Assembly (NCBI GenBank): GCA_025617745.1
Contig: CM046870.1
Coordinates: 28,663,927-28,727,926 of the forward strand
Origin: Heliocidaris erythrogramma
Lineage: Eukaryota > Echinodermata > Echinoidea > Camarodonta > Echinometridae
Direction of reading: 5' to 3'
Length of the DNA: 64,000 nucleotides
Of the stretch, positions 16,236 through 50,632 are shown in pieces. The stretch's first letter is position 1; every line of letters starts with the position of its first letter. Both the position numbers and the translations under genes were made by a program. A model generated the notes under the pieces. It searched no databases. It saw nothing but the letters and a program-made list of their open reading frames with translations, and was not told where the DNA came from.

Positions 16236-16331
16236 ATGCTGGGCTTGCGGGTGTTAAGCGCTGTTTGGTTGTTTATATTAGTTTGTTTGTTCCACTTGAC
16301 CGGGGCTCGACCACATGCAGATGGAGAAGAG
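16236..16331 (+). CDS. Exon 1: signal peptide
   Basis: 32 codons beginning MLGLRVLSAVWLFILVCLFH, a basic start then a hydrophobic core, then LTGA|RPHADGEE. It ends GAG with donor GTAAGA, phase 0. This ATG is chosen because it gives a complete signal peptide that joins in frame to exon 2. It is too short to stand out as an ORF. Confidence 0.85.
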
Positions 16332-19300
16332 GTAAGAAGATGAATTCATCATCGTGCGAGGGTTTGTTTGAGCATGGCATGTTGATATCTGTTGATATTA
16401 TTAGATCTTCACTTTTGATATGCATGTGATCCCTTTGTCTGGCAATGTTGATTATTTAGCCCCTCCCATCCCACGTATGCACTCTCTCTCTCGCTTTCAT
16501 CATTTTATGGAACCCCCCCCCCCCCCCCCCCCCCGTCCTACCACCCATACTCCTATTCCTACAATCTTAGTGTTAATGATTTTATATTTCATATATAGAC
16601 GAGTACTTACAATCATGCATATCTTATACAGAATGGCATAAAAGCTAAGGAAGTTGCATGATGATTTTTGTTGTTGTTGATGATGTCTATCATGTCTATT
16701 GATGCTGGAATTCACTTCATCTCCGGTTGACACCATGTACTCTATTTTGCATTGTTTTGTTTTGGAGGTTTGAGGTGAAAACTCTCAAATCTCTCACTCT
16801 CAGCCTTAACCTTCCGTCAATTATCTAACGAAATCCCGACAGGTTCCTATATAAATTGTTCTTGTAGATTGGGTAGACATCCAATTTCCTTTTCCTTCTT
16901 TTTGATCACATGTTGCGGATCGCTCAGGGAGCCTGTTCTAATCATGTCGACCTTGGAAGACGAACCCGTAGAGTCAGCCCTTTTTTATGATCAGGAATTA
17001 ATAACATGTGTGCTGGATCATTCCTTTATTATCGTTCCTAAAATCTTCCTAATGATTGAATTCAATTCCCCGTGGAATATCTGGAGGTTTGAGCTACTTA
17101 CAAAACATAGTTTTCAGTTTTAAATTGCAGTATTTTTTCAAGATCCTGTCCGATTAATGTCGCTACGTTCTTGAAACATTCTTTAGAATTATGTTCGGCT
17201 ATTTTTATCAGGATTGAGAAACGAAACCTGAATGAACCAGGAAACAATTCTCCGAATAACAAAGGAACAGATGAGAAATGTTCCTACAAGTACACTGTGA
17301 AAGGAACAGTCTAGAAGCAGAAGTTGTTTTTGTGAACGAAACAGTGTAGAAGTTCTTGGCCATGTGTCTGCCTCCTTTTTTCTCCACCTTTTATTTCCTC
17401 ATTCTCTATTTCTTTCCCCTTCTTTTATTCTTCTTTCTTTTCCCTTGTTTGGCATGCTATGCATGATTGCCCAGTTTTTTTATGTTGTATTTGTAATTTA
17501 CCTTTTGCCAGGAACCAGCGCTTCTACAAAATACAAGCTCTGCTTCTTTGCTGGTGTTTGTTTTCATTCTCATTTTCATATGATAAATCTAATGACGTCT
17601 TCAATATTGTTATATTTTCCCTTACAACTCAAACGTTAATGCTCCTTATTTTGCTTGTAATAATCGATTTCTGCACTTAGTTTTGTTGTCAATTATTTTG
17701 TATATTGTAAATTGCACAATAGTTATTGTTGTGTATTTTGAAAAATGAAAAATGAAATGAAAGAAAATCTAAATTTGATATCTCAAATTAGTTTACTATG
17801 TATATACTAACCGTTTTGGAACCATCAAAAAAGATTTTCTTTTAACTGACAAAATATTCCTGAAAACAATTTGGATCTAAAAAGCACTGAACTACGTCAG
17901 CATGCGCAAATACTATATGATCAGAATTTCACCTTAAGTTGTAAACTATTTTATGTTTCATAAGATAAGGTCAACTTAGATTCTCTTCATGAAACATTGT
18001 TAGTAAATATTCCTGAACATGCAAGGAATTGTGCACAAATACAAGAAGCCCCGAATGTATAAGGCCAAATAAAATGAATTCCTAGTTTCTCGCCCCCTCC
18101 TCTTTCTTCTTTTCGGGCCGTCTCAACATTTTTGTTATTTGTTTGGGGTTTTTTTTGTTCTGAATTGAAATAAATAAGTATATGTGGACATCTAGACAAT
18201 GATGTAACAAAGACCATTCCCTTGTTTGGTGTCTTTGAGATGCATGTACAAGTGAAATTAATTTTTTGTAAAATGTGTTGAAAATTACCCGATATCATTT
18301 TTAGGTATCGGAAAACATCAAATATTAAATAACATGGAACCCCCTCCTCCTCATTTCCGAAAAATCCGGACAAGAAACTAGGAATCAATTTGACATGGCC
18401 TAATACGTTTTTTCGTGAAGTTTTGCCAATGCCCGACTTTCCGTTACGCAATCGCCTATAAACACCTGTTTGCGAGGACTTTAATTTGGGCGTCGCATGT
18501 ATACGTGCCGGGTCAAGATAAGGTTGCTCCTCCTACCGTTTGCAGAATTGCTTGTCAAAATGTGAAGAAAAATATGATTTGATTGTTTAGTATACTTGAT
18601 CTCATAAAGTATGACGTTGCTTTCGAAGAATTAATGCTGTGATGTTTTCATTCGCCAGGCATGTGCGTGGTAATTCTCGTAGTCGTAATTTTTTTTTCTA
18701 CGAAATTTACTCTCGCTATTCCATTCCTTCTTTCATGCTTTCGCGCTCACACATAAACGCTAGTCTGCAACCATAGACCCTAATTTGACACTTTATCAGA
18801 AAATCATTGTGTCTTGAGAGAAGCCTAATTCAGCTACCTTCTGGTCGTCAATGTGTCAGGAGCAGCTACAGTACATGGTAGTCTTACAGCGCAGACTCTC
18901 TTTTACGACTGACTAGGGTTTGTGCCTGCAAACTACACAAACGCCCACTCCGCAACCACCACCCCTCCCTAGTCTGCAAGCACAGACCCAAATTTGACAT
19001 TCTATTTTGAAAATCGTTGTATCTTGAGAGAATCCTAAACACAGACAGGTTCCTCCTGTCAGGAGCTGCAGCTATTAAATACAGGGGCTATGCTTGTAGT
19101 CTTACAGTTCAGGCATTCTGTTACGCGTTTCGACTGACAAGGGAAGGGTATGTCCCTGCAAACTTACCCCTCCCCCCCCCCCCCCATCTCTCTCCCTCAC
19201 TCACGCTCTAGGCCTTTTTCATCATCTTTCCCCCTCTCGAACCACCCCTCGGCTCTACGTTACTTTTTTTTCCCAGTGTGACCTACCTACGTTTGCTGTT

Positions 19301-22300
19301 GCAAAGTTGAAAGAAACTTCCAGCAAATCGGAAAGGGCATTCCAGATGTTACAGTCTTGCAAGTCGCCAGAGCGAGTTCAGCTCTAGATTACTAGGTTAA
19401 TTTAATTTGCAAGTCAAATAGAGGAACAATGTAGAGGTCACGTGCAAGTGGTGACAGCTAGTTACAAGAAGAGAAAAAGTATTATAGATATTAGAAGATT
19501 ATGGGGGCCATTTTATAATTCAAGAGAAGGCTATAGCCTACAGCCCACGAGACCGACAATTTTGATCTCGCGGGCCACTTGACATTTCTTTGCTAGGGTT
19601 CATGAGACTGACCGCCCACAAGACCGAAAATGTCGACCTTTCGGACATTCTGACAAGTTTTCAAGGATTCGCTCTACCGCCGCCGGCCCACGAGATCGTA
19701 AGCCCATTAGACTGACAGCCGGTCCCACAAGACCGAAGCCCCACCCAGCCCCATAACCCAAGACAGACGGTTTTCTTCCTCGTTTCTTTCTTTGTTTTGT
19801 AGCTCTTCCGTGGTAGATCGGGAAAATTTTGAGAATTATCGCACAGCAATGGTATATAGTAAAGAAGTTCTTTTCAACAGAAATAGTGTTTGATCACGTG
19901 AAGTATTCTTAACCAATCCAAGTACAGTGAATTATATCTACGAAGGATATAAAACTTGACTATTCTGGAATTTAATGGACATTAGTATTACAATAACTAA
20001 TTTGCTATTTTAGGATTGTGTGCTCTCATTCTTCTCTTTTCAGGGTGAAGTTAAAGACGTAGGGGGGAGACAAAAGAGACAGTCCGACATCAGTTATGGA
20101 TGGAAACACACACAGTACCTCATAGCACATCTCAGACAACGACTTAATAACAACGACTTATATTGTAAGTATTCTCCTCCTTCCCTAGTTCAGTCGCTGC
20201 TATTCTGTAACTCACAGAGTTAATGTTATGTAAATATTTGATTTTGAGATCTGTGAGATTATAGGGTGTTTTTTAGGGAGTCCTTATAAAAAATGCGGGA
20301 AAAGAGAAAAAGATCGAAAAGGAAAGGGAGAAGGGGAAGAGAACGAGAAAAGAAGACGATATGACCCCTTCCCGTACTCCCCCTAATCAGTGGTCTCGTA
20401 AATTCACATTGAATTTTCCGAGTAAGGCCGGTGCCCCTCCCCAATGATGCCAATGCCCCTTAATGGCTAGGCCAGGGTTTTTACTCTTTGCTTATTATAC
20501 CGGGTGTCCCCAAAAAAGCGGAACGGCGGGTTTTCAGTACTTTGCCTTCAAAAAGTATACAAATATTTTACATCAATGGGCAAAACATCCTCTACCAAAG
20601 AGAATGATATCAAGATCATTTACTTTTGATTCTATTCCCGTTTCTTAAACTACGGTAATTTTCACATTTCTCATATTTTTTGGTGATAGATGAGAGTAGA
20701 ATTGTGGCGAGAATGGCCTTCCATATGGCATGTACGTGTCACATACGCCTTTTTTCTTCTTCTTTTTTTTTGTGTGTGTGTTTCTATTGGTCTTTTGTTG
20801 ACACGCATCAACGGGCTTCCCCGAACATCGTACATACCGTATGGAAGGCCATTCTCGACACAATTCTACTCTCATCGGTCGCAAAAAACATGCAAAATTT
20901 GAAAATGGCTGTATTTTAAGAAACGGGCATAGAATCAAAATTACTTAACTAAATTAAATGATATTCATTTCATTTACTTTGGTAGAAGATGCTTTACCCC
21001 ATATCGCAACAAAATTATGTACTATTCGAAGGTAAAGTACTGAAAAACGGCCTTTCGCTTATTGTTGGACACCCGGTATAAATTGCATTGCAGTCCATGC
21101 AACATTCTACCCAAGGGAATTTGTTAATTAAATTATTTTTATTAAAAATTTGAAAATGGCTGTATTTTAAGAAACGGGCATAGAATCAATTTTTTTGTGT
21201 TTGTTTCTATTGGTCTTTTGTTGACACGCATCAACGGGCTTCCCCCAAACATCGTACATACCGTATGGAAGGCCATTCTCGACACAATTCTACTCTCATC
21301 GGTCGCAAAAAACATGCAAAATTTGAAAATGGCTGTATTTTAAGAAACGGGCATAGAATCAAAATTACTTAACTAAATTCAATGATCTTCATTTCATTTA
21401 CTTTGGTAGAAGATGCTTTACCCCCATATCGCAACAAAATTATGTACTATTCGAAGGTAAAGTACTGAAAAACGGCCTTTCGCTTATTGTTGGACACCCG
21501 GTATAAATTGCATTGCAGTCCATGCAACATTCTACCCAAGGGAATTTGTTAATTAAATTATTTTTATTAAAGATTTAAAAAACTGTATTTCTGCAAACTA
21601 CGTCGAGGGTGCAAAGGACTGTTATTGTTTTAGCGTTGAGGGTGCATTATGGGTCAATATATCGGATCGCGTGATATGGAAACCGTCCAGCCAGTAGACT
21701 ATACTTTTTACGAATTGGTTCTGTTCTTTAAAATTTCATCTTATTCAATTTCAGAATCAAGTAGAAAGGATTATCATTAAACTTTGTTTTTTGTTTTAAT
21801 ACAAGCACTTTACACATGAAATCAGTTCAAATGTACAGTTTCCCCATGCTTCTTTTGTTTAATAACTAAAAGACATTGTTAATATTTTGGCTGACATTGG
21901 GTCACAAAAGGCCACGTGACTTCATATTGATTGGACGGTACGTACTATTCCACTATGTAGTACGCCAAAAAGTGTCAAATGATGCGCAAGAATAAAGACA
22001 GAAAGTGGCGGTTTCAGACAGCAGAAAATAAAGTAGTATAATGTTATACGTTCACTTGATTAAACCTTTACAATAATGAAATGTATCCTCTGTTTACTTG
22101 CACTTCCACGATCAATGTCAACTTATTTTATTTATGTTACACCAGTCTGTAATGGAGACCCTTTCCAAGGAGTCGCGTGTCCAGAGGAACAGCTTTGCGT
22201 TGATTGGCATGAAATATGCGATGGCACCCAGGTATTTATTGTGGTTATAACAGTATGGATAATGACATGATGATAATGTTGATGATTATGTTGAAAGTAA

Positions 22301-24346
22301 TCATGAGGATGACGATAGTGATAATAATGATAACGATATTAAGGCCAAGTAAAATTGATTCCTGGTTTCTCGTTCGGATTTTTAGAGAATGTCGAGGAGG
22401 AGGGGGTTCATGTTAATTTATTTTTTTTTCTGCTACGTGGAAATGCTACTGGCCCAATTTTACCCCACGTCTTTAAAAATTAAATTTCATTTCATATTCA
22501 CACTAAAGGCTCAAGACAAGGAGAAATTGCGTTATAGCAATGTTTTTTTTGTGTGTATTCATTGCCTACATGTCCTCATATTAGTCATATCAGAATAAAA
22601 ATAACGATTAACAACAAAAAAATGATGCGGCCTGAAGAAGGCAGGAGGAGGGGACGAGAAAATACCTGTAATTTTTTGGCCTAAAGTTATCAAGACTTAA
22701 TTTGCTGGGGTGTGTGTTTGTGTGTAATTGGGTTTTTACAGACGTGTATCAATCAGATATGATTATTTACGTCTGGGACCGACCTTTAACGTCACCATCC
22801 GAAAGACGTAGAGGTGGTATTCTGAGATTTATTTTATTTTGCTTTTAGTGGAATAATTTTAATTGTCATAACAAAATGTACGCTTGTGGCGCATCATTGG
22901 TTAATGACTGCGCAAAAGAGGCTGCGTACGTGGAATTCATCTGCGCAAACACCAATGAAATGTTGCAGTTTAAAATCTGTTATGAACAATTAAAATCTTT
23001 TCACTAAAATCAAGATAAATTAAATCTCAGAATACCACCCCTGATCTCCTTTATTTCTTTTCATTCTCCTTTTCTTGCTGGATGTAAATAGCTGAGAAAG
23101 TTTATTGGGAATTGGCCCTACGTGTGTATGGGCAAGTCCAAATTATTTGGTCCTGTACTTTACCTATACTACAACAAAGATTTTAGTATTTCTAATATTA
23201 TCCATTTGGCAGCCCTTCTCTAGTTTGGATCAGATGAATTATCAAGGATAAGGTGCCCCCGGAAATGTTAACACATTGTAGAGCAACTAATGTTATAGGC
23301 TAGACGCCCACCCCCCTCCCCCAGCCGTGCCAAGACAAGTTACAATAATTGTTATAAGCTACTGCAATCATTAAATCTCATTGACTGTGAGCAGAAATGG
23401 GGCATTTATTAATAACAAAGAAGCACAACATTCCTTGGACTTGTCCATAAGGGAAAACTAATTTAGTGGCGGATCCAGGGGGATATGCATTGTGCCCCCC
23501 CCCCCTTTGGATTTTTTTTTTTTTTTTTTTTGCTGGTCAGAGAATTATGGAGGAAAACATTGCTATGCATGGATATGCATTGTGCCCCCCCCCTCCCCCC
23601 CACTGTGCGAGTTTTAGAGGTTTTAGAGTTTTAGAGACCAACAAAATACGGGTCAACCTTTTCCAAAAGTTGACAAACCTGCATTTGTGTGCCCCCCCCC
23701 TCCCCTTATACAAAATCCTGGATCCGCCCCTGCCTAATTCATGCAGGTTATTAAATGATATTTCCATATATTCCCGTTTATTGGCAGACGTGCGGGTTAG
23801 AAGTTAGAGAAGACTGCATTAACAGTACCATCGATTCGTATGGTAGGACAGACGACAGATTCTGCGTCGGTGACGAAGATCCCAAATGGTGTGAGTGGAA
23901 ACGATCGGCACCACATCGTAAGTCTTGTCCCCTGGTACATCTCGTTAGAGGAAAAATATTGGAGCGGCAGCCCATTAGACCGACGGCTTACCAGACTGTC
24001 AAAATCGGTCTTGTGAATTTTAAGAAAAGTTTTCAGGAGGCCCGCAAGGCCGACATATCTATGTCGTGGGCTATCGCCTATCGGCGTCATGGGCTTTCGA
24101 TCCATTGAGCTGTCGGTGACGTGGGCCATCAGCCTTGGGGACTCTCAAATGCCATTTCAGAAGGCACACGAGACCGAGACTGTCGGTCTGTGGGCTGTCG
24201 GTCTCAGCCCTTGACCAGTCTCATAAATGAGGCGTCAAGTCCATTGCTCCAGTCCGGGTCATTGATACCGACTGACACGAGGCGTCAAGCGGCTGCGCCA
24301 TTCGGTTCATTCAATTTGAAAGAAATCACGTGAGGGGAACTTCCGA

Positions 24347-24377
<31 letters not shown>

Positions 24378-27300
24378 TCGGACAAAATTTGCCTCGTATT
24401 TTCGTATTTCAAACAGCTACATTTCAAGTCGTAGCCGGGATTTTTCCATGGGGGGGGGCAGACGTGAATGATCCAACCGCATAGCCAGGATTTCATTTTA
24501 GGGGGCGGTTGTGAGCACGCGAAGAGTGCGAAATTGGTGATGAGCACCAAAGCGGAATTTATGTAATACGGACGGCACGTCAGCCCTTAAGAAGTGCCTC
24601 CCACCACTCTAAGAACCATTCCCCGCCCGTGGGTACCAAAAGGTGGGGACCGTAAAGGGCCAGGGGAGGCGTCTATTTGAACCATAAAAAGGCCCCAAAT
24701 CCTTAGCGTAATATATATGTAGATATTCTGTTCAGTTTTGTTTGGATTTCTTTTTTATTTTGATGAAACATCCATGTAATCCTATTATGTCCGGATTCTA
24801 TTTCATTAAATTTGAATTTGAAGTTGAATTTGGATTTGTTATTATAAAGGGAGCCCTTAATACAAATTTTGTGAAAATAAAATACTACTTGTGTTATACA
24901 TTTGAATATTCAGGGGATCATGTAGGCCTATACACAAGTATGATTTTTTTAACGGTCTGGTGTTCTCACGGTGCTACCAATTTTCCACTTGCCATGTAAA
25001 GCAACATGGTCTCAAAACGCTTTTCCCAGCGTAATTTTCACTTGCCGGAATATCAAAGAAACAATACATTTTCCACATAACACGATAAGAACTACTTTCG
25101 AGAAATAAACGCAAGGGCAATTTCAAAGGCCTATTGTACTGCCCATAGAAATCAGGTTCGGATTATGTAATACACCATTGTAATGTTCGCCCATTTCTAA
25201 AGGTGATAGACAGGGCTATTTTTCGAAAGTAGTTTTTATCGTGTTCATTTTTTTTTAGTATGATGTGGCTATAAAAATGTCTTTTTGTCCAATGTATATT
25301 TGTATTGCTTTGTCCGTATGAAATTATTTGCTGCCTTTGGCTAAAGTGCCAATTGGTTTCTATGTGGCATGTCATTTTTTCACATTTCAGTGGTATACAA
25401 ATTATGCTTCTTCTCTCCCTTCCATATACAGGATGCGGAGAGGATTTTGTTTTCGACCTGTCGCGGAAACGTAGGCAATACCGAATCCGCCACCCGGGCT
25501 TCCCCAGCGGTTACTTGAATGACCGGTACTGTTTCTGGACAGTCAGTACTGACCCTGGCCATACCCTTTACATCGAGTTCAAGAAGTTCAGGACCGAGAA
25601 GAACTACGACTATCTGTCCCTTGGACAGGGGCTTCGCCGCGATGATGACAGGAAGACGCTGATCTACCAGTACAGTGGGACCTTGAAACCTGCAATCTTC
25701 AAGACCAATCCAAGACTGGGGAACGCCCATCAAGTATGGGTGAGCTTCAGATCCGATGATTGGGACACTGATGAAGGATTCATCATCGAAATCAGCGATA
25801 GTTCGAGGATAATGGATAGAGGTAAATTCTCCTCTCCCTCTCTTTCCCCTCCGTAGTCATTGTGTATTTGATTCCGATATCCACAATATACACATATGCC
25901 TGGTTTTAAGATAAAAATAAGTATGAAGTCTATGAGAATAGTTTGGCTATAGACAACCCTTCCCAGAAATATCAAAATACTGGAGTCACCTTTAATCCTT
26001 ACTGTACTGTGATATTTCAAGCTTTTCTCTGACTGGGGGGGGGGGGCTTGGAGATCGGTGAATGTTTGAGCAAAATCCGATAAGAAATAAGAATTTCCCT
26101 TTTCTCTATTTAAAAAAATACGTTATCATACATGCACCATAGATAATCATTTCACTTATGCTTTTACACAAAACCTGTATGATTCAAATCTGTTGCCTCC
26201 TCAAAAGCAAAGAAAATAAAAATTTATGAATTTTTGTGTATGGAGCGAAAGGGAGAGGATATCGCAAGATACGTCATGGAGTTGCGTTTGTGTTTGGTTG
26301 ATTACAATTTCAAAAAATCATAACTTTCTTATTTCTTATCGGATTTTGCTCAAACATTCACTGATCTGTTCATTTAATTTTGCTGCTGCTTTTGAATTTT
26401 TGTGTTGATCTCAGGGTTGATTTACACTTTAAACGAAATTAAGACAAAACCACGATTGTGTTCATTGTAGAACACATGCCGCTGTGAACGGGCATTTGGC
26501 CGAAATTACAAACGAACAGTTGCTCAAGAAAAACTCACATTGAGAGAGAAATTCATGTAGTTATCATTCATCACTGCAATGTGGGGAACGTAAACAAGGG
26601 TATATTCTTCTAGGTATCTAATATTTCAACGAGAAATTTAGACTGTTAATGATCCTACAATAGCGGCTGATCTTTTCTGATGAATAAAAGTTCAGTCACA
26701 GCCAAGGCTCATTGAAGCAAATGTTTTATGATTAGGCAAACTTTGTCAATTGCTATATGTAGAGGTGTTGTGGATCAGTGGATAAGTCCCCGGACTATGA
26801 ACCACGAGGTCCAGGGTTCGTATCCCACCGCACCACTAGCGTCCTTTGGCAAGACATTAATCTACATTTGCTACTCTCCACCCAGGAGTTAAATGGGTAC
26901 CCGGTAGGATGCGAAAGTTAATGTCGTTTGTTTAGCAATTTGAGCGCCACTGTGCTGCTCTTGCTGCAATACTCCCCAGGGAGCGGATAAAGTGCACACA
27001 TTGTGTGCGGGCATGTCAGAATCCGATGACCGGGGTAATAATAGTATCGTAATATGTAAAGCACTTTGATATTAGTTTACTTCTGAAAAGCGCTATATAA
27101 ATAGACGTTATTATTATTATTATTATTATTCAAGCAAGTACTTGCTATTCACGGAGGAGCATTCGCTTCCTAAAAAGAAAAACAACGTGTTTTGTTTCCA
27201 ATTGCTTTATTTTACAAGTTTTACTGTCAGTTTTTTCATAATGCGCTATGAAAAACCAATCTTTACATCAATGATATTAATGTCATCTATTATCCATTTC

Positions 27301-30300
27301 CTTCTGCAGAAGTTAAATTAATGGGCAATAATCCGCTTCTAACAAGACCAAAAAATGGTGAGTAGTGGCCGAACTGGTCTTTCCTTTGGTGTTCATACCC
27401 TTGTGTTTTATAGCCCAGACAGCCAAATGGTATTTGTAATGATTTAAACTGGGGACTTCCATCTAACTTGAGGCGTTTTCGATGTATTCATCGGGGGGGG
27501 GGGGGGGACCAACCTATCCCCCCCTGAATCAATTTCCTGCATACATGTATTTCTGCCAATGGTCATTACCTTCATTAATCAAGCCCCTGAAGGTAATTAG
27601 TGCATGCGTCAGACATTGATAACAATATTTGCACTGTTCAATTTGCATTTACTGTTTGTGTGCCATCACTCATAGATAGCCCTCCAAATGCCTAGTTTGC
27701 AGGCACGAACCCTGGTCAGCCGTAAAAGAGTGCACTGTAAGACTACCATATGCCCTGTACTGTAGCTGCTCCTGACACGACCAGTAGGTAGCTGGTTTAG
27801 GCTTTTCTCAAGACAATGTTTTTTTGATAAAGTGTCAAATTGAGGTCTGTGCTTGCAGACTCCCAACGACCGGTTACTCTCCGACGCAGCCGTACGTCAG
27901 GCATAACATAATCCTCAAAATTTAATGCAAAAGGCATACTGCCCTTAGCACATGAGGCGCCAGTTCGACATGGAACTCTTGTCAAGGCAATTTCACAGAG
28001 GCCAGTTTGAGAGTGGCATAGCACTCAAAGTGTATTGCATCAGTAATTACATAATTATGTAATAAGGCAATCGAAATAACGCAAGGTGTTTTTTTTGTAT
28101 CCATTATAATGTCAACCAATCAAATAAATTCAAATACTTCCCAAAGTAATGCTCTTCCATCATCTATTCACATTCGGGCAGAAACATTCCGATCAGTCAT
28201 TCCTGTTGGCGGCCAAAAAATCTTGACGTCACCTGGCTATCCTGAATTCTACGAAGACAACAAAACGGTGAATTACATAGTATCGGCAAGGAGGGGGCGC
28301 CGAATAGAAATACGGTAAGTGTACGAAATGATACAAAATTATCAGAGTCACGGGCTCACGGCTTTTACCGATTATCATCATCATATATACTGGAAGTACC
28401 GAAATGGAAAGAAAAACACGAAAAACACGAAATCAGGTACAAATACATTATGAAAACAGAACGACAAATCGACTGATACAGGCAATACTAGACATAAAAT
28501 GTAATCTAGGCCTCCTGCCAATCTCTTCCCATGTACGTCTATTACCTTACACCTGTATTGCCTATTCCATCAGTTTACACATTAACACGTACGAGTTGCA
28601 AACAGAGTCACTTTTGTGCAATAGATTGGAAATTCACTATAACAAGGACATTGGGACCAGCAAAATTATCAGGGTAAAAAAAACAAAGAAACATAAAGAC
28701 TTGGGACCAGAGAAATTACCCTGTTATATCAGGAATCTCGTTATATCAGAGCTCTTTATGTACCAAATTTACACTGTATGAATCATTTTTCATATTCTCT
28801 TATATTTAGGAGGTTTAATTATTTAACCTTACTGCAATTGGCACTAGCACACTTGCTGAGGGGTAAGGGGGTATGATAAACCGAATTTTCAGTCAAACGA
28901 CTTATTATAACAAAGTATATAATCATTAAATTGTTCTTAAAACCTCGTAAATTATGTGTACATAAATATTCTGGCTGCACTGGTATTCTTCCGTACAGTA
29001 GAAGAAAAAGAATAAGGAGACTCACCTGGGGAGCGTTTCATCAAGCGTTTTGTCAGTGATTTTTACCGACAACTGTTATAAGCTACTGAAATCCATGCAT
29101 CTGATTGGCCGAGAGCAAATTTGTCGGTAAAAATCACTGACAAAATGCTTGATGAAACGCTCCCCAGAACTCCGCTTTCGATCTTACTCTCAGGTTCACT
29201 GTCTTTGACTTGGAAGAAAATGTAGATTACCTCAGTCTCGGTAATGGACCCCTAATACGCAGATACCCGATATTTTACCGGAAAACCGGTCTTATTCGGG
29301 ACTACAACAGCCTACGTCACGTTTCGACCGCCTCCGACGTATGGCTGGTGTTCGAGTCCAGTGTGGCCATTGCCCGCCAGGGTTTCGTGGCCAAGCTCAG
29401 GGAAGTTCCTATCACAGGTATGACAAAGAAGCGTGCGAAGAATGGTGTTTCTGAATCGGTCATGTGGCAATTCTAAGTTATATTTGTGACAAAAAACACC
29501 CTATAGGAAATTGGTAGTTTAAACATCATATTCCAATATTCATTCTATAGTAAGTCTCCTATTTTGGGATTTTCTTAATGATAATGTTGCCCTCAACAAA
29601 TAGAGTGTGTCTTTTTTTATTTAGAGTTATCATTTTCATTCAGAGGTCAAACTAGGTCGGTGTAGCAGGAAAGGGGTCTTGCTTTTGTTGAATTTTTGTA
29701 CCTTATTTTCTAGTATATCCCTAGGACTACAGCTTACTGAAGGATGGGCTTGCCCCCTATGAGTTCGAATTCAATATTTTACGAATGAATAAATTTTCTT
29801 TTGTTTCAGAGGTCAAAATTAGGCTGGTCATGTGTGTGTGTGTGTGAGACCACTCGGAAAAGAGGCCTTTTAAAGATGTCTTTGCGAAAGCTGTCTGGTT
29901 GAGAAATTGTACAAATTCTTTTTCACAGCAACGTCAGATCAAATTAATTGGTACGGCAATTACATTGAAATTCTTGATATGTAATATATTATCGCCATTA
30001 AGAATAATTGCTGTACCTGATCATGTATGTGACGTTGGTTTCACCAAGGACCTACTACGAAGGTTTCACTTACAGAAATGCCCATCCAGCTGTTATTGTT
30101 TTGAAAGTTTGTAAAATTGTGTCCGGAGTATTAATTCGGAATAATCCCTTCGAAACTTCGACCCCCCCCCCCCAAAAAAAAAAAAAAAAAAAAAAAGAGG
30201 GAGGGAAAGAATATAATATAATATAAGTTACAAACAACCAAATGTTTTTATTTTTCATCTTGAGTCTTGCGGATGGGATTGCCGGCTTTTTTTAAGCCTG

Positions 30301-33300
30301 CAAAAAAGCTTGTTTTCAATTTTTTTATCATTTGAGGACAGCGGCAACCCCCTCCCCCTCCCCTTTGATTCACCTATGGTTTGTAATATTTTTTTTTTTT
30401 TTTTTTTGCTCTTTCTCTCTCTCTCTCTCCCTCTCTCTCGTCCTAGAATGCGGTGGAACCTTCTTAGTGCCGGACAATGGGTCGATTGCCGTGGCGAGCA
30501 AGAACTACCCCGACCTGGCCTACTCTAGCAACATGGACTGCACGTGGTCGATCAAGAACGAAGAGGGCCGTCGAATGTGGATCAGCTTCCACGATTTCTC
30601 TACCGAGTGGCGGAAAGACTTCCTCAGCATGGGCAACGGGGCCCCGGAAGATCGCAACCGCACCACCGCAATTATTAGCATGCACAGCGGAACGCACTTG
30701 CCGGATCCGTACGAATTCACGAGTTCGGGAGATGAGGTTATTATCGCTCTCGTGGAGGTTATTGTTTTTACACGTCCGTTTGAGTGCTTTTGTTTTGTCG
30801 TTTGTTTGTTGTTGTTTCTTCTTTTAGTTGTTTTTGTTTTGGGGGCGATCTCACATTAGTGCGCGCATCATAAATGTGCACTCTTTGACACTCTTTATCC
30901 GCGCATGCGCATGTGGTAATTACGAACTGGCTTATTTTCCGTCCGTCCGTAGGTCACGCTTTCTCGTTAATGGATGTCTCATGAACAATTTGAGGTATGA
31001 ACGGTGCTAGCGTGCATCACCATGAGAAGACGATCAGATTAGATTTTGGGGTACGCAGGTCAAAGGTCAAAAGTCACAGAGGTCAATTACTGAAATTTCA
31101 GGTGTTACCCTCATTAACGCGATATCTCAAGCACCATTTCTGGTAATTCAAACTTGGTACTATTATTTTTCATCATAGTAAGACGATGTGCTTAGATTTT
31201 GAGGAATTTAGGTCAAGATCGAAGGTCACAGAGGTCATTTACGCATGAAATTGCAGGTTTTTAGCTTCCTTATTGCAATATCTTTTGAACAATTTTAGCC
31301 ATTAACTTCAAACTTGGTATCACCATATTGAGACTTTGTCATACTGATTAGATTTTGGTTTATGTAGGTCAAAGGTCATAGAGGTCATTAAAGATTTGTT
31401 AGTTTTTTTTATCACCATATCTCACCTATTTTCTATGACTAGGAGGCAATAAAGTGATCAAATTTTTGGCTTGTTAGGTCAAAGAGGTCAATGAGCATTG
31501 TGTTTGTAGGATTCTTGTTCTGGTTATCACGATATTTCAAGAAGAGTTTGAGTGATGAAGTTAACTGAAAAGAAGGCGGATGCATTTAGGAGACGCAGTC
31601 GCATTCATCTTGTTATGAAAATGATCTCTGCTAGAAGTACGACTTTTTCATTTCGCAAGAGAGCAGTACTGCATGTATATTGTTTGTGTTGTTTGTCGTT
31701 ACTGTCTGTAGCTAACTGTTTTGTTGTAACCTCGTCTTCTCTTTTGGGTTATGCATACATGTTTAGCCCTGTTTTTAAATAAAGCTTATTTCCCCACCAT
31801 CTTTGAGGATAATTACTAATTATTTTCAATCATGATTTTGGAAGAAGAACATCAGCGAATAATAATCCTCTGCTGAATTTTCATAATAAAATAGGTTACA
31901 TGTCGTTTTCCGAAGGTTCATAATTCCGAAAATAAAATGGAACCCTAAATATGCTTAAGTTTTTGAAATTACGAGCATTCGGAATAAACAGATAAAGAAC
32001 ATATTTAGAGTAACACATCAGATGTTCGGAATAAGGAAGAAGAAAAAAAATCGTTTTCGGAGTAATCAACCAGCTGGTATTTGAAGTTTGTGTGTATGTA
32101 ACTAAGAACCTTCCGTTAAAAACGAACCTTCGGAAGCATGAGTCATTCCCATATATAGCATAGCCAAGAGTACTTATATTTGATATTTCTATTTGTTTGA
32201 TTCTTTACCACTTTGTTTTCTTATTCGTTTGTTTGCCTGCTTCGTCTTCATCATCAATGTTTTATTACCTTTCATTTACGCATGAAGGTATGGTTGACTT
32301 TTACAACAAGCCGCTACAACCATCATCGGGGTTTCTTGGTGGATATCTTTGACGAATTGCTGCACCCGTAAGTACAAGATTATATTCTACCCAAGATAAA
32401 ATCAACAACATGGAATTAGTACAGTACTAATGATGAGATTGCCTTTAAAAAACCGTCTAGAATGTTTATGGAAAGGTAGGTAATATAGATTAAATGTAAG
32501 ATATTGTGGATTTTTCTTGATGTACGCTTTTGGAATCATTAAATGATTTTTGAAAATAGACCTAGTATTGCCGAAAATTACATGCATGCAGTTGAAAGTA
32601 AAATAATACAGACATGAGTAACTGGGACTACAAACACGTAGCATCGGAATTTCCTCCAGGGATGTCAACAATTAAAAAAGAATCGAAAATACATATGGAG
32701 CAAATATTAAAATGATGTTCAGAATCTCTAAGGACCTGTTAGTATTGAATCTCTTCATAGCATCAGGGAAGCGTTTCATCAAGCGTTTTGTCAGTGATAT
32801 TTACTGACAGATTTGCTCTCAGCCAATCAGATGCAAGGACGTCAGTAGCTTATAACAGTTGTTGGTAAAAATCACAAAACGCTTGATGAAACGCTCCCCT
32901 GGTTGCAATTGACCAGTTCGCAAAAAATGTATTCAGTTTCTGTGACAGTGCATAATTTCCAGCCATCCCTCGTTAGAAGCTTTACCGACATATAGTAACA
33001 ACTAATGTATGCAACTTAAATTCTGGCTGTGGAACGTAATACGGTTCATCGTAACAGCTGAATGCAATGCTTCATCACTAGAGGGTCATGGGGTACAAAC
33101 GTCTTTAACTTTATGTACATATGACAACTTGACTATTTGCCACCCCTGTCGTATTGTTAGAAGTTCATGATTGTTCTGTGTTGTTCATTGTTCTGTGTTT
33201 TCACATACAGACCACCGGTCACCACTGCCCCTCCAACTACACAACCGCCACCTACCACCGAGCCTCGCCGGACCAAACCGACCAGGCGTCCGAAGCCGAC

Positions 33301-33748
33301 ACGTCGTCCTAAACCACGCCCACGCCCTGTGGTCTTACCCGGCTTCGAGCCGGCGCCTACAAACGACTATGTTCCCTTGACATGGCCACGGCAAACTACA
33401 ACTACAAGACGACCTACGACGCGAAGAACAACTAGACGTACCACCACGACGAAGAGACCGACGACTACCCGACGGACTACGACTACTAGACGACCAACCA
33501 CTACGCGTCGCCCTACTACCACTACACGTCGGCCAACTACCACTCGGCGTACTACCACAACCCGTCGCACCACTACCACCAAGCGACCCACCACCACTAC
33601 CACAACCAGGGCACCCACGACCAGGAAAACGACAACCACCACAAGCAGACCTATCATCAACCCTTGGGAGATCCCAAGCGATTCCTCCTCCTCCTCGTCT
33701 ATCTCATTCTTCTCCAGCCTTGACTCCACAGAAAGCCAGTTTGTGTGA
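16236..33748 (+). CDS. Secreted LDLa-like / triple-CUB / Thr-Arg-rich tail protein (11 coding exons)
   Basis: Joined exons: 16236-16331, 20044-20164, 22146-22231, 23788-23917, 25432-25821, 27310-27357, 28182-28314, 29194-29417, 30447-30736, 32288-32367, 33211-33748. The total is 2136 nt, 711 residues plus stop; every junction is GT-AG with matching phase. Layout: signal peptide 1-24 (cleavage likely GA|RP), RQKR at 41-44, LDLa-like six-Cys module 74-111, CUB1 about 146-266, linker, CUB2 about 291-405, CUB3 about 411-527, Thr/Arg/Pro tail about 533-680, Ser-rich acidic end. No membrane segment follows the signal peptide, so it should be secreted. CUB domains usually bind proteins or glycans, often with calcium; the cationic Thr-rich tail suggests O-glycosylation or binding to acidic matrix (inference). 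N-glycosylation sequons include NST, NKT and NRT. I do not recognise a named orthologue. Confidence 0.85.
17352..17650 (+). repeat. Dispersed repeat, copy 2 (partner at 6645-6955)
   Basis: Begins TGGCCATGTGTCTGCCTCC, includes GGCATGCTATGCATGATTGC and ends CTTACAACTCAAACG. It has an extra internal segment absent from the other copy. It continues into an AT-rich tail ending AAAAATGAAATGAAAG, which is LINE-tail-like. Confidence 0.55.
18060..18402. mobile_element. MITE family E, copy 1 (AGGCCAAATAAAATGAATTC)
   Basis: Inverted ends AGGCCAAATAAAATGAATTC-CTAGTTTCTCG and the complement of GAAACTAGGAATCAATTTGA-CATGGCCT. Subterminal CCCCTCCTC blocks on both arms match the copy at 22340-22683. Confidence 0.75.
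18761..18936. mobile_element. MITE family D, copy 1 (TAGTCTGCA ends)
   Basis: Left end TAGTCTGCAACCATAGACCC, right end GGGTTTGTGCCTGCAAACTA. The inside has ATCATTGTGTCTTGAGAGAA and TAGTCTTACAG. Related copies are at 18970-19164 (same orientation) and 27692-27860 (opposite). Confidence 0.75.
18970..19164. mobile_element. MITE family D, copy 2
   Basis: CTAGTCTGCAAGCACAGACC at the left, GTATGTCCCTGCAAACT at the right, with TCGTTGTATCTTGAGAGAAT and GTAGTCTTACAG inside. Only about 35 bases separate it from copy 1. Confidence 0.75.
19540..19740. repeat. Degenerate AGACCGACA-type repeat
   Basis: Several units of CCCACGAGACCGACA or CACAAGACCGAA and their complements occur here. A comparable patch is at 23960-24215. 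It forms partial hairpins and looks like a decayed palindromic repeat. Confidence 0.5.
20044..20164 (+). CDS. Exon 2: propeptide/linker with RQKR
   Basis: Follows a good acceptor (CTTCTCTTTTCAG). Residues 33-72 begin GEVKDVGGRQKRQSDISYGW and end in LNNNDLY; one base is carried over (phase 1) before donor GTAAGT. RQKR fits the furin consensus RX(K/R)R, so the mature chain may start at Gln45 (inference). Confidence 0.85.
20498..21078. mobile_element. TA-flanked MITE with TACCGGGTGTCC ends
   Basis: The left end TACCGGGTGTCCCCAAAAAA and the right end TTGTTGGACACCCGGTA are inverted, followed by shared TTTTCAGTACTTTGCC and its complement GGTAAAGTACTGAAAA. Inner arms share GAGAATGGCCTTCCATA and its complement. 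Flanked by TA on both sides. Tc1/mariner-like and nonautonomous. Confidence 0.8.
20767..21571 (+). repeat. Tandem duplication of about 424 bp
   Basis: The right half of the MITE plus about 90 bases of flank occurs twice in tandem, with the second copy starting near 21190. Landmarks TTTCTATTGGTCTTTTGTTG, ACCGTATGGAAGGCCATTCT, GGACACCCGGTATAAATTGC and GTTAATTAAATTATTTTTAT recur at offsets of 423-425. Few substitutions separate the copies. Confidence 0.85.
22146..22231 (+). CDS. Exon 3: first part of LDLa-like module
   Basis: The split codon gives Phe73, followed by CNGDPFQGVACPEEQLCVDW and HEICDGTQ. Ends phase 0 at CAG with donor GTATTT, a weaker donor. It carries the first four of six LDLa cysteines and the CDG turn. 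Confidence 0.8.
22340..22683. mobile_element. MITE family E, copy 2
   Basis: TAAGGCCAAGTAAAATTGAT-TCCTGGTTTCTCG on the left, and GACGAGAAAATACCTGTAAT-TTTTTGGCCTA on the right in inverted sense. GAGGAGGAGG-like blocks sit inside both ends, as in 18060-18402. Confidence 0.75.
22717..22811 (+). repeat. Dispersed repeat, copy 2 (partner at 10399-10500)
   Basis: GTGTGTAATTGGGTTTTTAC, GACGTGTATCAATCAGATAT and CGTCACCATCCGAAAGACGT, as at 10399-10500. It abuts the next MITE directly. Confidence 0.7.
22813..23041. mobile_element. Palindromic MITE, GGTGGTATTCTGAGATTTA ends
   Basis: GGTGGTATTCTGAGATTTAT at the left and TTAAATCTCAGAATACCACC at the right, continuing through inverted TTTTAGTG.. / ..CACTAAAA and TTAATTGT / ACAATTAA. 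Confidence 0.85.
23326..23400. mobile_element. MITE family A fragment
   Basis: CAAGACAAGTTACAATAATT-GTTATAAGCTACTGCAATC and a degraded GAGCAGAAAT follow the copy at 53684-53811. The terminal repeats are lost. Confidence 0.6.
23465..23732. mobile_element. hAT-like MITE, GTGGCGGATCCAGG ends
   Basis: Left AGTGGCGGATCCAGGGGGAT, right ATCCTGGATCCGCCCCTG. The flanks CTAATTTA and CCTAATTC look like a decayed 8-bp duplication. The inside is C-rich with a T run and a duplicated GGATATGCATTGTGCCCCCC. Confidence 0.7.
23788..23917 (+). CDS. Exon 4: end of LDLa-like module and Cys linker
   Basis: Starts TCGLEVREDCINSTIDSYGR and runs to DEDPKWCEWKRSAPH, phase 1 at donor GTAAGT. It supplies LDLa cysteines 5 and 6 (residues 103 and 111). 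The usual SDE acidic box is replaced by LEVRED. Two further cysteines (CVGDEDPKWC) follow before CUB1. One N-glycosylation sequon, NST. Confidence 0.85.
23918..25431 (+). other. Intron 4
   Basis: Begins with an AGACCGACA/TGTCGGTCT hairpin-rich patch (23960-24215) like the one at 19540, then a direct GACACGAGGCGTCAAG-type repeat (24225-24300). It has a poly(C) run of about 27 bases (24350-24376). The rest is AT-rich without recognised features. Confidence 0.65.
25432..25821 (+). CDS. Exon 5: CUB domain 1
   Basis: A whole CUB domain in one exon, phase 1 at both ends. CGEDFVFDL opens it, then HPGFPSGYLNDRYCFWTVST (the CUB signature, second Cys at residue 178), IEFKKFRTEKNYDYLSLG, and VWVSFRSDDWDTDEGFIIEI. 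Glu in FRTE, Asp in YDYL and Asp in RSDD sit where calcium-binding CUBs keep their acidic triad. Only the first disulfide pair (146-178) is present; Cys3 and Cys4 are missing. Confidence 0.92.
26049..26430. mobile_element. MITE family B, copy 2
   Basis: GTTTGAGCAAAATCCGATAA-GAAATAAGAA near the left and its complement TTCTTATTTCTTATCGGATT-TTGCTCAAAC near the right form long inverted arms. ACGTCATGGAGTTGCG matches the complement of CAACTCCGTGACGT in the other copies. Confidence 0.75.
26760..27131 (+). mobile_element. tRNA-derived SINE with (ATT)n tail
   Basis: The 5' end has Pol III boxes, GTGGATCAGTGG (A box) and GGTTCGTATCC (B box), in a tRNA-like head. The body has CCTTTGGCAAGACATTAATC and AGGAGTTAAATGGGTACCCG. 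It ends AAGCGCTATATAAATAGACG followed by (TTA)n. This is the form of sea urchin-type tRNA SINEs that borrow a LINE 3' tail (family knowledge). Looks fairly complete. Confidence 0.8.
27310..27357 (+). CDS. Exon 6: short linker between CUB1 and CUB2
   Basis: 48 nt, phase 1 at both ends, encoding residues 275-290, EVKLMGNNPLLTRPKN. Acceptor CTTCTGCAG, donor GTGAGT. Because it is symmetric, skipping it would keep frame. Supported by phase and splice signals only. Confidence 0.7.
27358..28181 (+). other. Intron 6
   Basis: Contains a poly(G) run (27493-27507) and an inverted copy of MITE family D. No exon-like content beyond that. Confidence 0.7.
27692..27860. mobile_element. MITE family D, copy 3 (inverted)
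   Basis: CTAGTTTGCAGGCACGAACC at the left, GGTCTGTGCTTGCAGACT at the right, with CTGTAAGACTACCAT and TCTCAAGACAATG inside: the reverse complement of copies at 18761 and 18970. Confidence 0.75.
28182..28314 (+). CDS. Exon 7: CUB domain 2, first half
   Basis: Residues 291-334 begin ETFRSVIPVGGQKILTSPGY and continue PEFYEDNKTVNYIVSARRGR to RIEI, phase 2 with donor GTAAGT. The SPGYPEFY stretch is the CUB opening strand. Both cysteines that normally flank it are absent; tyrosine or valine occupies the C-x-W position (VNYIV). NKT is a potential glycosylation site. Confidence 0.85.
28315..29193 (+). other. Intron 7
   Basis: Mostly unrecognised AT-rich sequence with a duplicated TTGGGACCAG (28650, 28700), ending in a family A MITE that leaves only 26 bases before exon 8. 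Confidence 0.7.
29036..29167. mobile_element. MITE family A, copy 4
   Basis: Complete: CTGGGGAGCGTTTCATCAAG to CTTGATGAAACGCTCCCCAG, with central AACTGTTATAAGCTACTGAA and GATTGGCCGAGAGCAAATTT. The arms are nearly perfect, suggesting a younger copy. Confidence 0.85.
29194..29417 (+). CDS. Exon 8: CUB domain 2, second half
   Basis: Residues 335-409: FTVFDLEENVDYLSLGNGPL, then YRKTGLIRDYNSLRHVST and VWLVFESSVAIARQGFVAKL, ending EVPIT with phase 1 and donor GTATGA. Glu and Asp of the calcium site are kept (DLEE, VDYL), but the third acidic residue is lost (FESS instead of RSD). No cysteine. Confidence 0.9.
29418..30446 (+). other. Intron 8
   Basis: Contains a GTGTGTGTGTG run (about 29831), CCCCCC/AAAAAA homopolymers (30163-30196), a T run and a CT microsatellite that serves as polypyrimidine tract before exon 9. 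Diverged AGAGGTCAAA blocks recur at 29640 and 29810. Confidence 0.65.
30447..30736 (+). CDS. Exon 9: CUB domain 3, main part
   Basis: Residues 410-506: ECGGTFLVPDNGSIAVASKN, YPDLAYSSNMDCTWSIKNEE, FHDFSTEWRKDFLSMGNG, then to TSSGDE. Cys411 and Cys441 form the single expected disulfide. NRT is a glycosylation sequon. GC content is visibly higher than the introns. The donor is GTTATT after GAG; an identical donor context occurs 21 bases further on (30757), which would add VIIALVE in frame. Confidence 0.88.
30737..32287 (+). other. Intron 9
   Basis: Starts with non-consensus GTTATT. Holds a diverged tandem repeat (30950-31530) and AT-rich sequence with a TTCGGAATAA/TTCCGAAAAT patch near 31910-32120. 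Acceptor CATGAAG before GTATGG is ordinary to weak. Confidence 0.65.
30950..31530 (+). repeat. Diverged minisatellite of ~155 bp with AGGTCA clusters
   Basis: Three and a half units, each with AGATTTTGG, a cluster of AGGTCA motifs (31057-31085, 31210-31237, 31366-31387, 31476-31490), CAATATCT-like and TTCAAACTTGGTA segments. Spacing between clusters is about 153, 156 and 110 bases. Confidence 0.7.
32288..32367 (+). CDS. Exon 10: end of CUB domain 3
   Basis: Residues 507-532: VWLTFTTSRYNHHRGFLVDI then FDELLH; two bases carry over (phase 2), donor GTAAGT. The RGFLVDI strand closes the CUB fold; the SD of the calcium site is replaced by TS. Confidence 0.85.
32368..33210 (+). other. Intron 10
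   Basis: Contains a family A MITE; the rest is AT-rich with no recognised features. Confidence 0.7.
32764..32901. mobile_element. MITE family A, copy 5
   Basis: CAGGGAAGCGTTTCATCAAG to CTTGATGAAACGCTCCCCTG, with GCTCTCAGCCAATCAGATGC and AGCTTATAACAGTTG inside: the opposite orientation to copy 4. Confidence 0.85.
33211..33748 (+). CDS. Exon 11: Pro/Thr/Arg-rich tail and stop
   Basis: Residues 533-711. It opens PPPVTTAPPTTQPPPTTEPR, passes a basic KPTRRPKP repeat and a short non-repeat insert (VVLPGFEPAPTNDYVPLTW), then many TTTRRPTTTRR variants. It ends WEIPSDSSSSSSISFFSSLD and STESQFV before TGA. The Thr/Pro content suggests dense O-glycosylation and the Arg gives strong positive charge (inference). 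Encoded by a short-unit coding minisatellite, so length is likely variable between alleles. Confidence 0.92.
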
Positions 33749-50530: not shown

Positions 50531-50632
50531 ATGAGGACTTTATGGGTGTGTTGTTTATTGATGATCGGGTTGGGATTGGCAGCCGCTAAACCCAGACCTG
50601 AATTGATGGACGAGTTAATGGGAGATGATAAG
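50531..50632 (+). CDS. First coding exon of a second secreted protein gene
   Basis: 34 codons starting MRTLWVCCLLMIGLGLAAA, a typical signal peptide, then KPRPELMDELMGDDK, ending at donor GTGAGT in phase 0. The upstream CCACG before ATG is acceptable context. The layout mirrors exon 1 of the CUB gene (signal peptide, Ala|basic-Pro cleavage context, phase 0 intron), but sequence likeness is slight. I could not identify exon 2 in the remaining 13 kb, so the gene is incomplete here and its function unknown. Confidence 0.6.

Follow-up and report, generated by a model that had tools for sequence, protein, structure and literature searches.

Genes A and B of the sea urchin Heliocidaris erythrogramma are tandem paralogues that encode secreted multi-CUB proteins with the same order of parts and with tails of opposite charge. 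Gene A lies inside the window, by which we mean the whole 64,000-nucleotide stretch of DNA that was analyzed, and gene B follows on the same strand and extends approximately 21 kb beyond the window end. Gene B, which shares its front end with A but carries an acidic tail, is new here and was absent from the earlier description of this DNA; the convertase cleavage motif RQKR|QS of gene A is a further addition. In the reading that we prefer, and to which we give about an even chance, A and B form a two-gene family of convertase-matured secreted extracellular scaffolds, whose charged tails and CUB pockets of the calcium type would take hold of charged partners, possibly including each other, and so cross-link a coat or matrix.

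Rebuilding the exon joins from the sequence gave gene A 11 exons at window positions 16236–33748 on the forward strand (2136 nt, 711 codons plus one stop). All ten introns have AG/GT borders and the exons join in phase, which bears out the eleven exons, consistent phases, 711 codons, and single stop of the original prediction, an ambiguity at the exon 9 donor aside. An identical GAG|gttatt occurs after 30736 and after 30757, giving 711 or 718 codons. We prefer the 711-codon version because, in an alignment that included this version, its spacing matches by eye that of the other seven CUBs in the two genes; the donor at 30757 was rejected on this CUB spacing by eye only. Exons 3 and 4 jointly match a single exon of gene B (search E values of 1.3e-16 and 7.0e-13). 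The one support for exon 2 is a short alignment with the matching gene B exon, and no search paired the two.

Exon 6 has no homologue. We scored it with a splice-site matrix that drew on both genes (19 acceptors and 18 donors, exon 6 excluded). Pseudo-exons scoring at least as well (open, phase 1-1, 24–240 nt) numbered zero in 30 kb of forward sequence, zero in 40 kb of reverse sequence, zero in the ten introns of A, and one in the nine introns of B then known. Because the control sequence holds no equally good phase 1-1 pseudo-exon, exon 6 is likely a genuine exon, and perhaps a cassette. The single match in the B introns, at 82766–82813 on the window scale, is also 48 nt long and phase 1-1, and it lies between CUB3 and CUB4 of B. 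Between CUBs, each gene therefore has a linker exon, or a candidate for one, of 48 nt and phase 1-1; the positions of the two differ and they show no clear sequence likeness.

Gene B encodes 858 residues followed by a stop; the DNA adjoining the window contains its CUB exons as well as another copy of the front module (E = 1.3e-16). Hydropathy and donor score decided the choice of its first exon among 7 candidates; a more stringent search had given none in 60000–68900. The gene probably starts at 50531, and its first intron would then span about 18 kb. This is the least certain exon of gene B, followed by the 48-nt exon at 82766.

Table 1. Coordinates of gene A and gene B features, on the scale of the window
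Feature	Position	Strand	Content
Gene A exon 1	16236..16331	+	Signal peptide (approximately residues 1–24, end placed by eye) and propeptide start; hydropathy maximum 2.37 over residues 1–19
Gene A exon 2	20044..20164	+	Remaining propeptide, convertase motif RQKR|QS (residues 41–46), short helix-like stretch
Gene A exon 3	22146..22231	+	Eight-cysteine module, first half; LDLa-like cysteine spacing
Gene A exon 4	23788..23917	+	Eight-cysteine module, second half
Gene A exon 5	25432..25821	+	CUB1; calcium-site set Tyr/Glu/Asp/Asp complete
Gene A exon 6	27310..27357	+	48-nt phase 1-1 linker exon, candidate cassette
Gene A exon 7	28182..28314	+	CUB2, first part; zero cysteines
Gene A exon 8	29194..29417	+	CUB2, second part
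Gene A exon 9	30447..30736	+	CUB3, first part; second donor at 30757 would add 7 codons
Gene A exon 10	32288..32367	+	CUB3, end
Gene A exon 11	33211..33748	+	Basic Thr/Arg/Pro tail, short acidic/Ser end, stop codon
Gene A polyadenylation-like signal AATAAA	34329..34334	+	581 nt 3' of the stop
Gene B likely exon 1	50531..50632	+	Signal peptide and propeptide start; sole B exon inside the window
Gene B exon 2	68928..69057	+	First B exon beyond the window
Gene B exon 3	70753..70971	+	
Gene B exon 4	71602..71799	+	
Gene B exon 5	72345..72524	+	
Gene B exon 6	74838..75004	+	
Gene B exon 7	81425..81614	+	
Gene B exon 8	82063..82431	+	
Gene B exon 9	82766..82813	+	
Gene B exon 10	83077..83427	+	
Gene B exon 11	83997..84362	+	
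Gene B exon 12	84838..85094	+	

Other elements were seen in the window. At about 20495–21510, in intron 2 of gene A, lies an element whose ends, TATACCGGGTGTCC ... GGACACCCGGTATA, are inverted and whose interior is partly duplicated, an arrangement that resembles a non-autonomous DNA transposon. Another, shorter element with inverted repeats, GAGCGTTTCATCAAG ... CTTGATGAAACGCTC, is present in two copies, at 29031–29162 and around 32762–32896. In the second copy the left end is different, and the first copy stops approximately 30 bases short of the acceptor of exon 8 in gene A. A tRNA-Arg (TCT) at 1125–1196 on the minus strand is the sole Rfam match at the gathering threshold within the window.

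The gene A protein has a hydrophobic start (2.37 in the signal peptide), and its best 19-mer after residue 40 reaches 0.96. No membrane span is seen in A because there is no second hydrophobic segment, and a membrane receptor was rejected on this ground. Together with the three CUB domains found by Pfam, these values support the secreted multi-CUB protein proposed earlier. Where A has the convertase motif RQKR|QS, B has RTRR|QS; the elements R-x-[KR]-R-Q-S, K-x-T, and LR-x-R are common to both proteins in a short alignment, which is not a search match. R-X-R-R motifs also occur in A at residues 156 (exon 5, CUB1) and 328 (exon 7, CUB2), where cutting, if it took place, would split the CUB row.

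Between the helix-like stretch and the CUB row, A and B have in common a module of 72 residues with eight cysteines. Over 105 aligned residues, covering the module and the helix-like stretch, the two proteins are 42% identical and keep all eight cysteines. The spacing is C-x9/10-C-x5-C-x6-C-x5-C-x7-C, with two more common cysteines before the first CUB. LDLa domains have a six-cysteine spacing with a C-x6-C-x5-C core. The "LDLa-like" label of the original prediction held for the six-cysteine spacing, which in gene A is the only feature that fits, and failed for the Pfam match. PF00057 (cut-off 24.1 bits) was not listed for gene A in a search at E ≤ 10, in which the HMMER filters remove most matches above about 0.1, and it gave 10.5 bits (E = 0.73) with the gene B module. 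True LDLa membership was therefore rejected, and the module would be at best a diverged LDLa relative.

When the front parts of the two proteins were searched against the PDB, profiles gave no match at E ≤ 10 and single sequences gave properdin only, at a best E of 0.86. Two other Pfam families resembled the module below cut-off, zf-RING-like at E = 0.097 and 0.03 and SUEL lectin at E = 0.18, and both were taken as chance. The module of A, searched against the 1.06-Gb genome at E ≤ 10, found three places, namely the two exons of A and the one of B. The module of B found A, B, and four places at E values of 0.7–2.5, which we took as noise. These searches gave A and B as the only clear carriers of this module in the genome. 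A possible third family member at C5:45928928, the best CUB match outside contig C18 when the A core was the probe (38% identity), was rejected, as the surrounding 30 kb showed a single clear CUB without a clear copy of the module.

The three CUB domains expected in gene A were borne out by Pfam: PF00431 matched CUB1, CUB2, and CUB3 with E values of 4.1e-13, 3.2e-10, and 1.2e-14 (50.0, 40.8, and 55.0 bits), all above its cut-off of 21.4 bits. All five CUBs of gene B exceed the same cut-off, at 39.2 to 70.9 bits. CUB1 of A is nearest to CUB1 of B (42% identity), and the other pairs show 20 to 38%. Among the cysteines of the A CUBs, CUB1 and CUB3 keep only the first pair and CUB2 has none. No protease, EGF, or NTR family was listed for gene A in the Pfam search at E ≤ 10, subject to the same HMMER filtering, and a CUB protease identity (tolloid, MASP, ovochymase) was rejected because no protease family is listed. 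Structure predictions of exon 5 alone and of the B module were of low confidence (pLDDT 44.9 and 48.8) and uninformative on fold.

CUB matches are numerous in this genome, at least 150 in all (150 of the 150 scored, from 772 candidates). Those at C17:19596855 and 19871830 and at C10:15.9 Mb have equal or near-equal scores, which suggests recent duplicates. The echinoderm origin of the genome finds support in contig C24, which is mitochondrial: over the first 250 COX1 codons compared with a probe, TGA falls at Trp in 6 of 6 cases, ATA at Ile in 5 of 6, AGA at Ser in 2 of 2, and AAA at Asn in 2 of 4 (the probe having Gln and Gly at the remaining two), in keeping with the echinoderm code. Contigs C1, C5, C18, and C21 measure 78.6, 52.2, 41.9, and 48.9 Mb, and C22 to C26 do not exceed 172537 bases; together with the genome total, these lengths suggest about 21 contigs of chromosome size, a number that suits a sea urchin.

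Calcium-site residues were assigned by aligning CUB1 of A with chains of cubilin, PCPE-1, and neuropilin-2 and by aligning the eight CUBs of A and B with one another. The calcium-site tyrosine of C1s is Tyr17. In CUB1 of that protein, PMC4222235 reports that a ligand lysine touches Glu45, Asp98, and Ser100 and that Asp53 is essential for the calcium site; PMC6954182 describes ligand binding by the calcium sites of further CUBs. In the alignment of eight, the Tyr, Glu, Asp, Asp set is complete in five (A1, B1, B2, B3, and B4), and Ser takes the place of the last Asp in A2, A3, and B5, so that A2 and A3 hold three of the four residues. A has one complete calcium-type pocket only, because its CUB2 and CUB3 lack this last Asp. 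CUB1 of A and CUB1–4 of B are candidate members of the calcium-binding CUB subtype.

The tail of A was analyzed as the 179 residues 533–711. Its first 148 residues contain 61 Thr, 29 Pro, and 38 Lys/Arg against 3 Asp/Glu, and the last 31 contain four acidic residues and no basic ones. The 87-residue tail of B has 19 acidic residues against 2 basic ones, and its pI is 4.05. Opposite tail charges in a gene pair can come about by chance, and A and B may be partners. The cationic Thr/Arg tail described for A finds support in its charge balance and in its being kept as protein, for which the DNA gives the following evidence.

Among the five alternative frames of the A tail, one forward and two reverse ones also stay open over 122 to 126 codons, so open-frame length is no evidence for the tail. 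These frames would suit a chance open frame in low-complexity DNA, with the real protein stopping after CUB3, an explanation that we consider highly improbable. In the 85-codon Thr/Arg core, the entropies at codon positions 1, 2, and 3 are 0.95, 1.09, and 1.99 bits; Thr is written as 18 ACC, 15 ACT, 9 ACG, and 8 ACA; and none of 10000 within-codon shuffles reaches the entropy gap. The longest exact DNA repeat is 12 nt, and the acceptor and phase of exon 11 fit the gene. The 59 codons preceding the core show a weaker contrast (1.76, 1.68, and 1.99 bits). The amino-acid pattern is kept while synonymous sites drift, and hence the tail is not a DNA repeat. A tandem repeat in the DNA was rejected as its source on the entropy gap and the 12-nt repeat, though TRF lists three weak arrays (scores 45 to 75). 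R-X-[KR]-R is absent from the tail, and RXXR occurs there once. With R-X-[KR]-R absent, there is no clear release of a cationic peptide, and a precursor of such peptides was rejected.

A and B belong among the secreted multi-CUB proteins, and we compared A with known members of the CUB class. Cubilin has a convertase-cleaved propeptide, then a helical oligomerizing stretch, 8 EGF domains, and 27 CUB domains. Its structure (PDB 3kq4) is the best solved match both of the A CUB row (E = 7e-25) and of CUB1 alone (E = 5.9e-20). A departs from the cubilin layout: it has three CUBs and no EGF domain in Pfam, and it carries a charged tail and the eight-cysteine module. Procollagen C-endopeptidase enhancer 1, which ends in an NTR domain, is likewise secreted with a short CUB row (PDB 6fzv, E = 4.2e-08), whereas A shows no NTR in Pfam and has a basic tail and a front module. 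NETO proteins are arranged as CUB-CUB-LDLa-membrane span. NETO2 (Neuropilin and tolloid-like protein 2, PDB 7f56) matches the A CUBs at E = 1.3e-05, but in A the module precedes the CUBs and there is no membrane span, so that the NETO layout does not apply. Several CUBs also resemble the C. elegans M02D8.5-like CUB families PF23061 and PF23062 (best 29 bits, E = 1e-06, whole A), with every listed match under the curated cut-off. The portions of the open-licence literature searched contain no recognizable naming of this layout of module, CUB row, and charged tail.

Building on the computed gene models, motifs, paralogy, and charges, we propose a scaffold mechanism in which the cleavage, helix, disorder, calcium binding, tissue, and all ligands are predicted. 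A and B would be cleaved after the dibasic convertase site, RQKR|QS in A and RTRR|QS in B. Each mature chain would then consist of a short helix, the eight-cysteine module, the CUB row, and a charged, disordered tail. Binding by the CUB row would depend on calcium and be directed at basic side chains on proteins of the matrix or coat, and the tail of A, through its 38 Lys/Arg, may hold polyanions, either sulfated polysaccharides or the acidic tail and CUB pockets of B. A would thereby cross-link an extracellular coat or matrix. A basic tail near pockets for basic side chains, together with the acidic tail of B, suggests the hypothesis that A and B bind each other. Sulfated polysaccharides are abundant in echinoderm matrix, and on a more cautious hypothesis the tail of A would hold these while its CUB1 held a basic partner. 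The pair, encoded side by side, could also be self-assembling: the polybasic tail of A would dock into the calcium-type CUB pockets and acidic tail of B, and complex coacervation of the two secreted proteins would yield a coat, matrix, or glue that depends on calcium. The oppositely charged tandem paralogues would then divide the labor between them, but we regard this reading as rather unlikely.

Other roles can be weighed against the same features. A and B might be skeletal matrix proteins (spicule, test, or spine) whose charged tails act on mineral or on occluded proteins. Calcium binding would be in keeping with the acidity of the B tail, but the tail of A is basic, and basic tails are unusual for mineral binding. 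The sea-star skeletal proteome of PMC5460417 (its Tables 1 and 2) includes Cub domain proteins and, in Table 2, an echinoderm protein with the same two domain names, PMI_027828 of Patiria miniata ("Cub/Ldlr domains"; urchin match XP_001180573.3). That protein is likened to A by label alone and may be unrelated: Table 2 shows no layout, and by its definition the urchin match of PMI_027828 is a different protein from that found in urchin skeletal proteomes. Neither PMI_027828 nor XP_001180573.3 is mentioned elsewhere in the open-licence literature searched. On balance, we judge a skeletal role unlikely, and to the same degree an immune or antimicrobial one, in which the cationic tail would bind or harm microbes and the CUB row would serve as the recognition arm. 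The excess of basic over acidic residues in the A tail and the large genomic CUB repertoire fit such a defense, but the missing R-X-[KR]-R site, with one RXXR, leaves no clear peptide release, and the tail of B is acidic.

Less probable still is a mucus-like surface or footprint adhesive, in which an O-glycosylated Thr tail and a CUB cross-linker would come from gland cells. The 61 Thr and 29 Pro among 148 tail residues favor it, but arginines lie between the threonines in the A tail, an arrangement atypical of mucin repeats. Sea-star footprints, as described in PMC9382459, contain the Thr-rich and predicted highly O-glycosylated Sfp12 and a CUB-bearing astacin.

Returning to the convertase-matured scaffold family, the eight-cysteine module provides a tag for finding its members in other species. 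If A and B are co-expressed, the pair would be a simple and testable case of tandem paralogues split into basic and acidic partners, with CUB pockets of the calcium type suited to a basic ligand. These genes could also account for one of the many uncharacterized CUB proteins in echinoderm coats, skeletons, and secretions.
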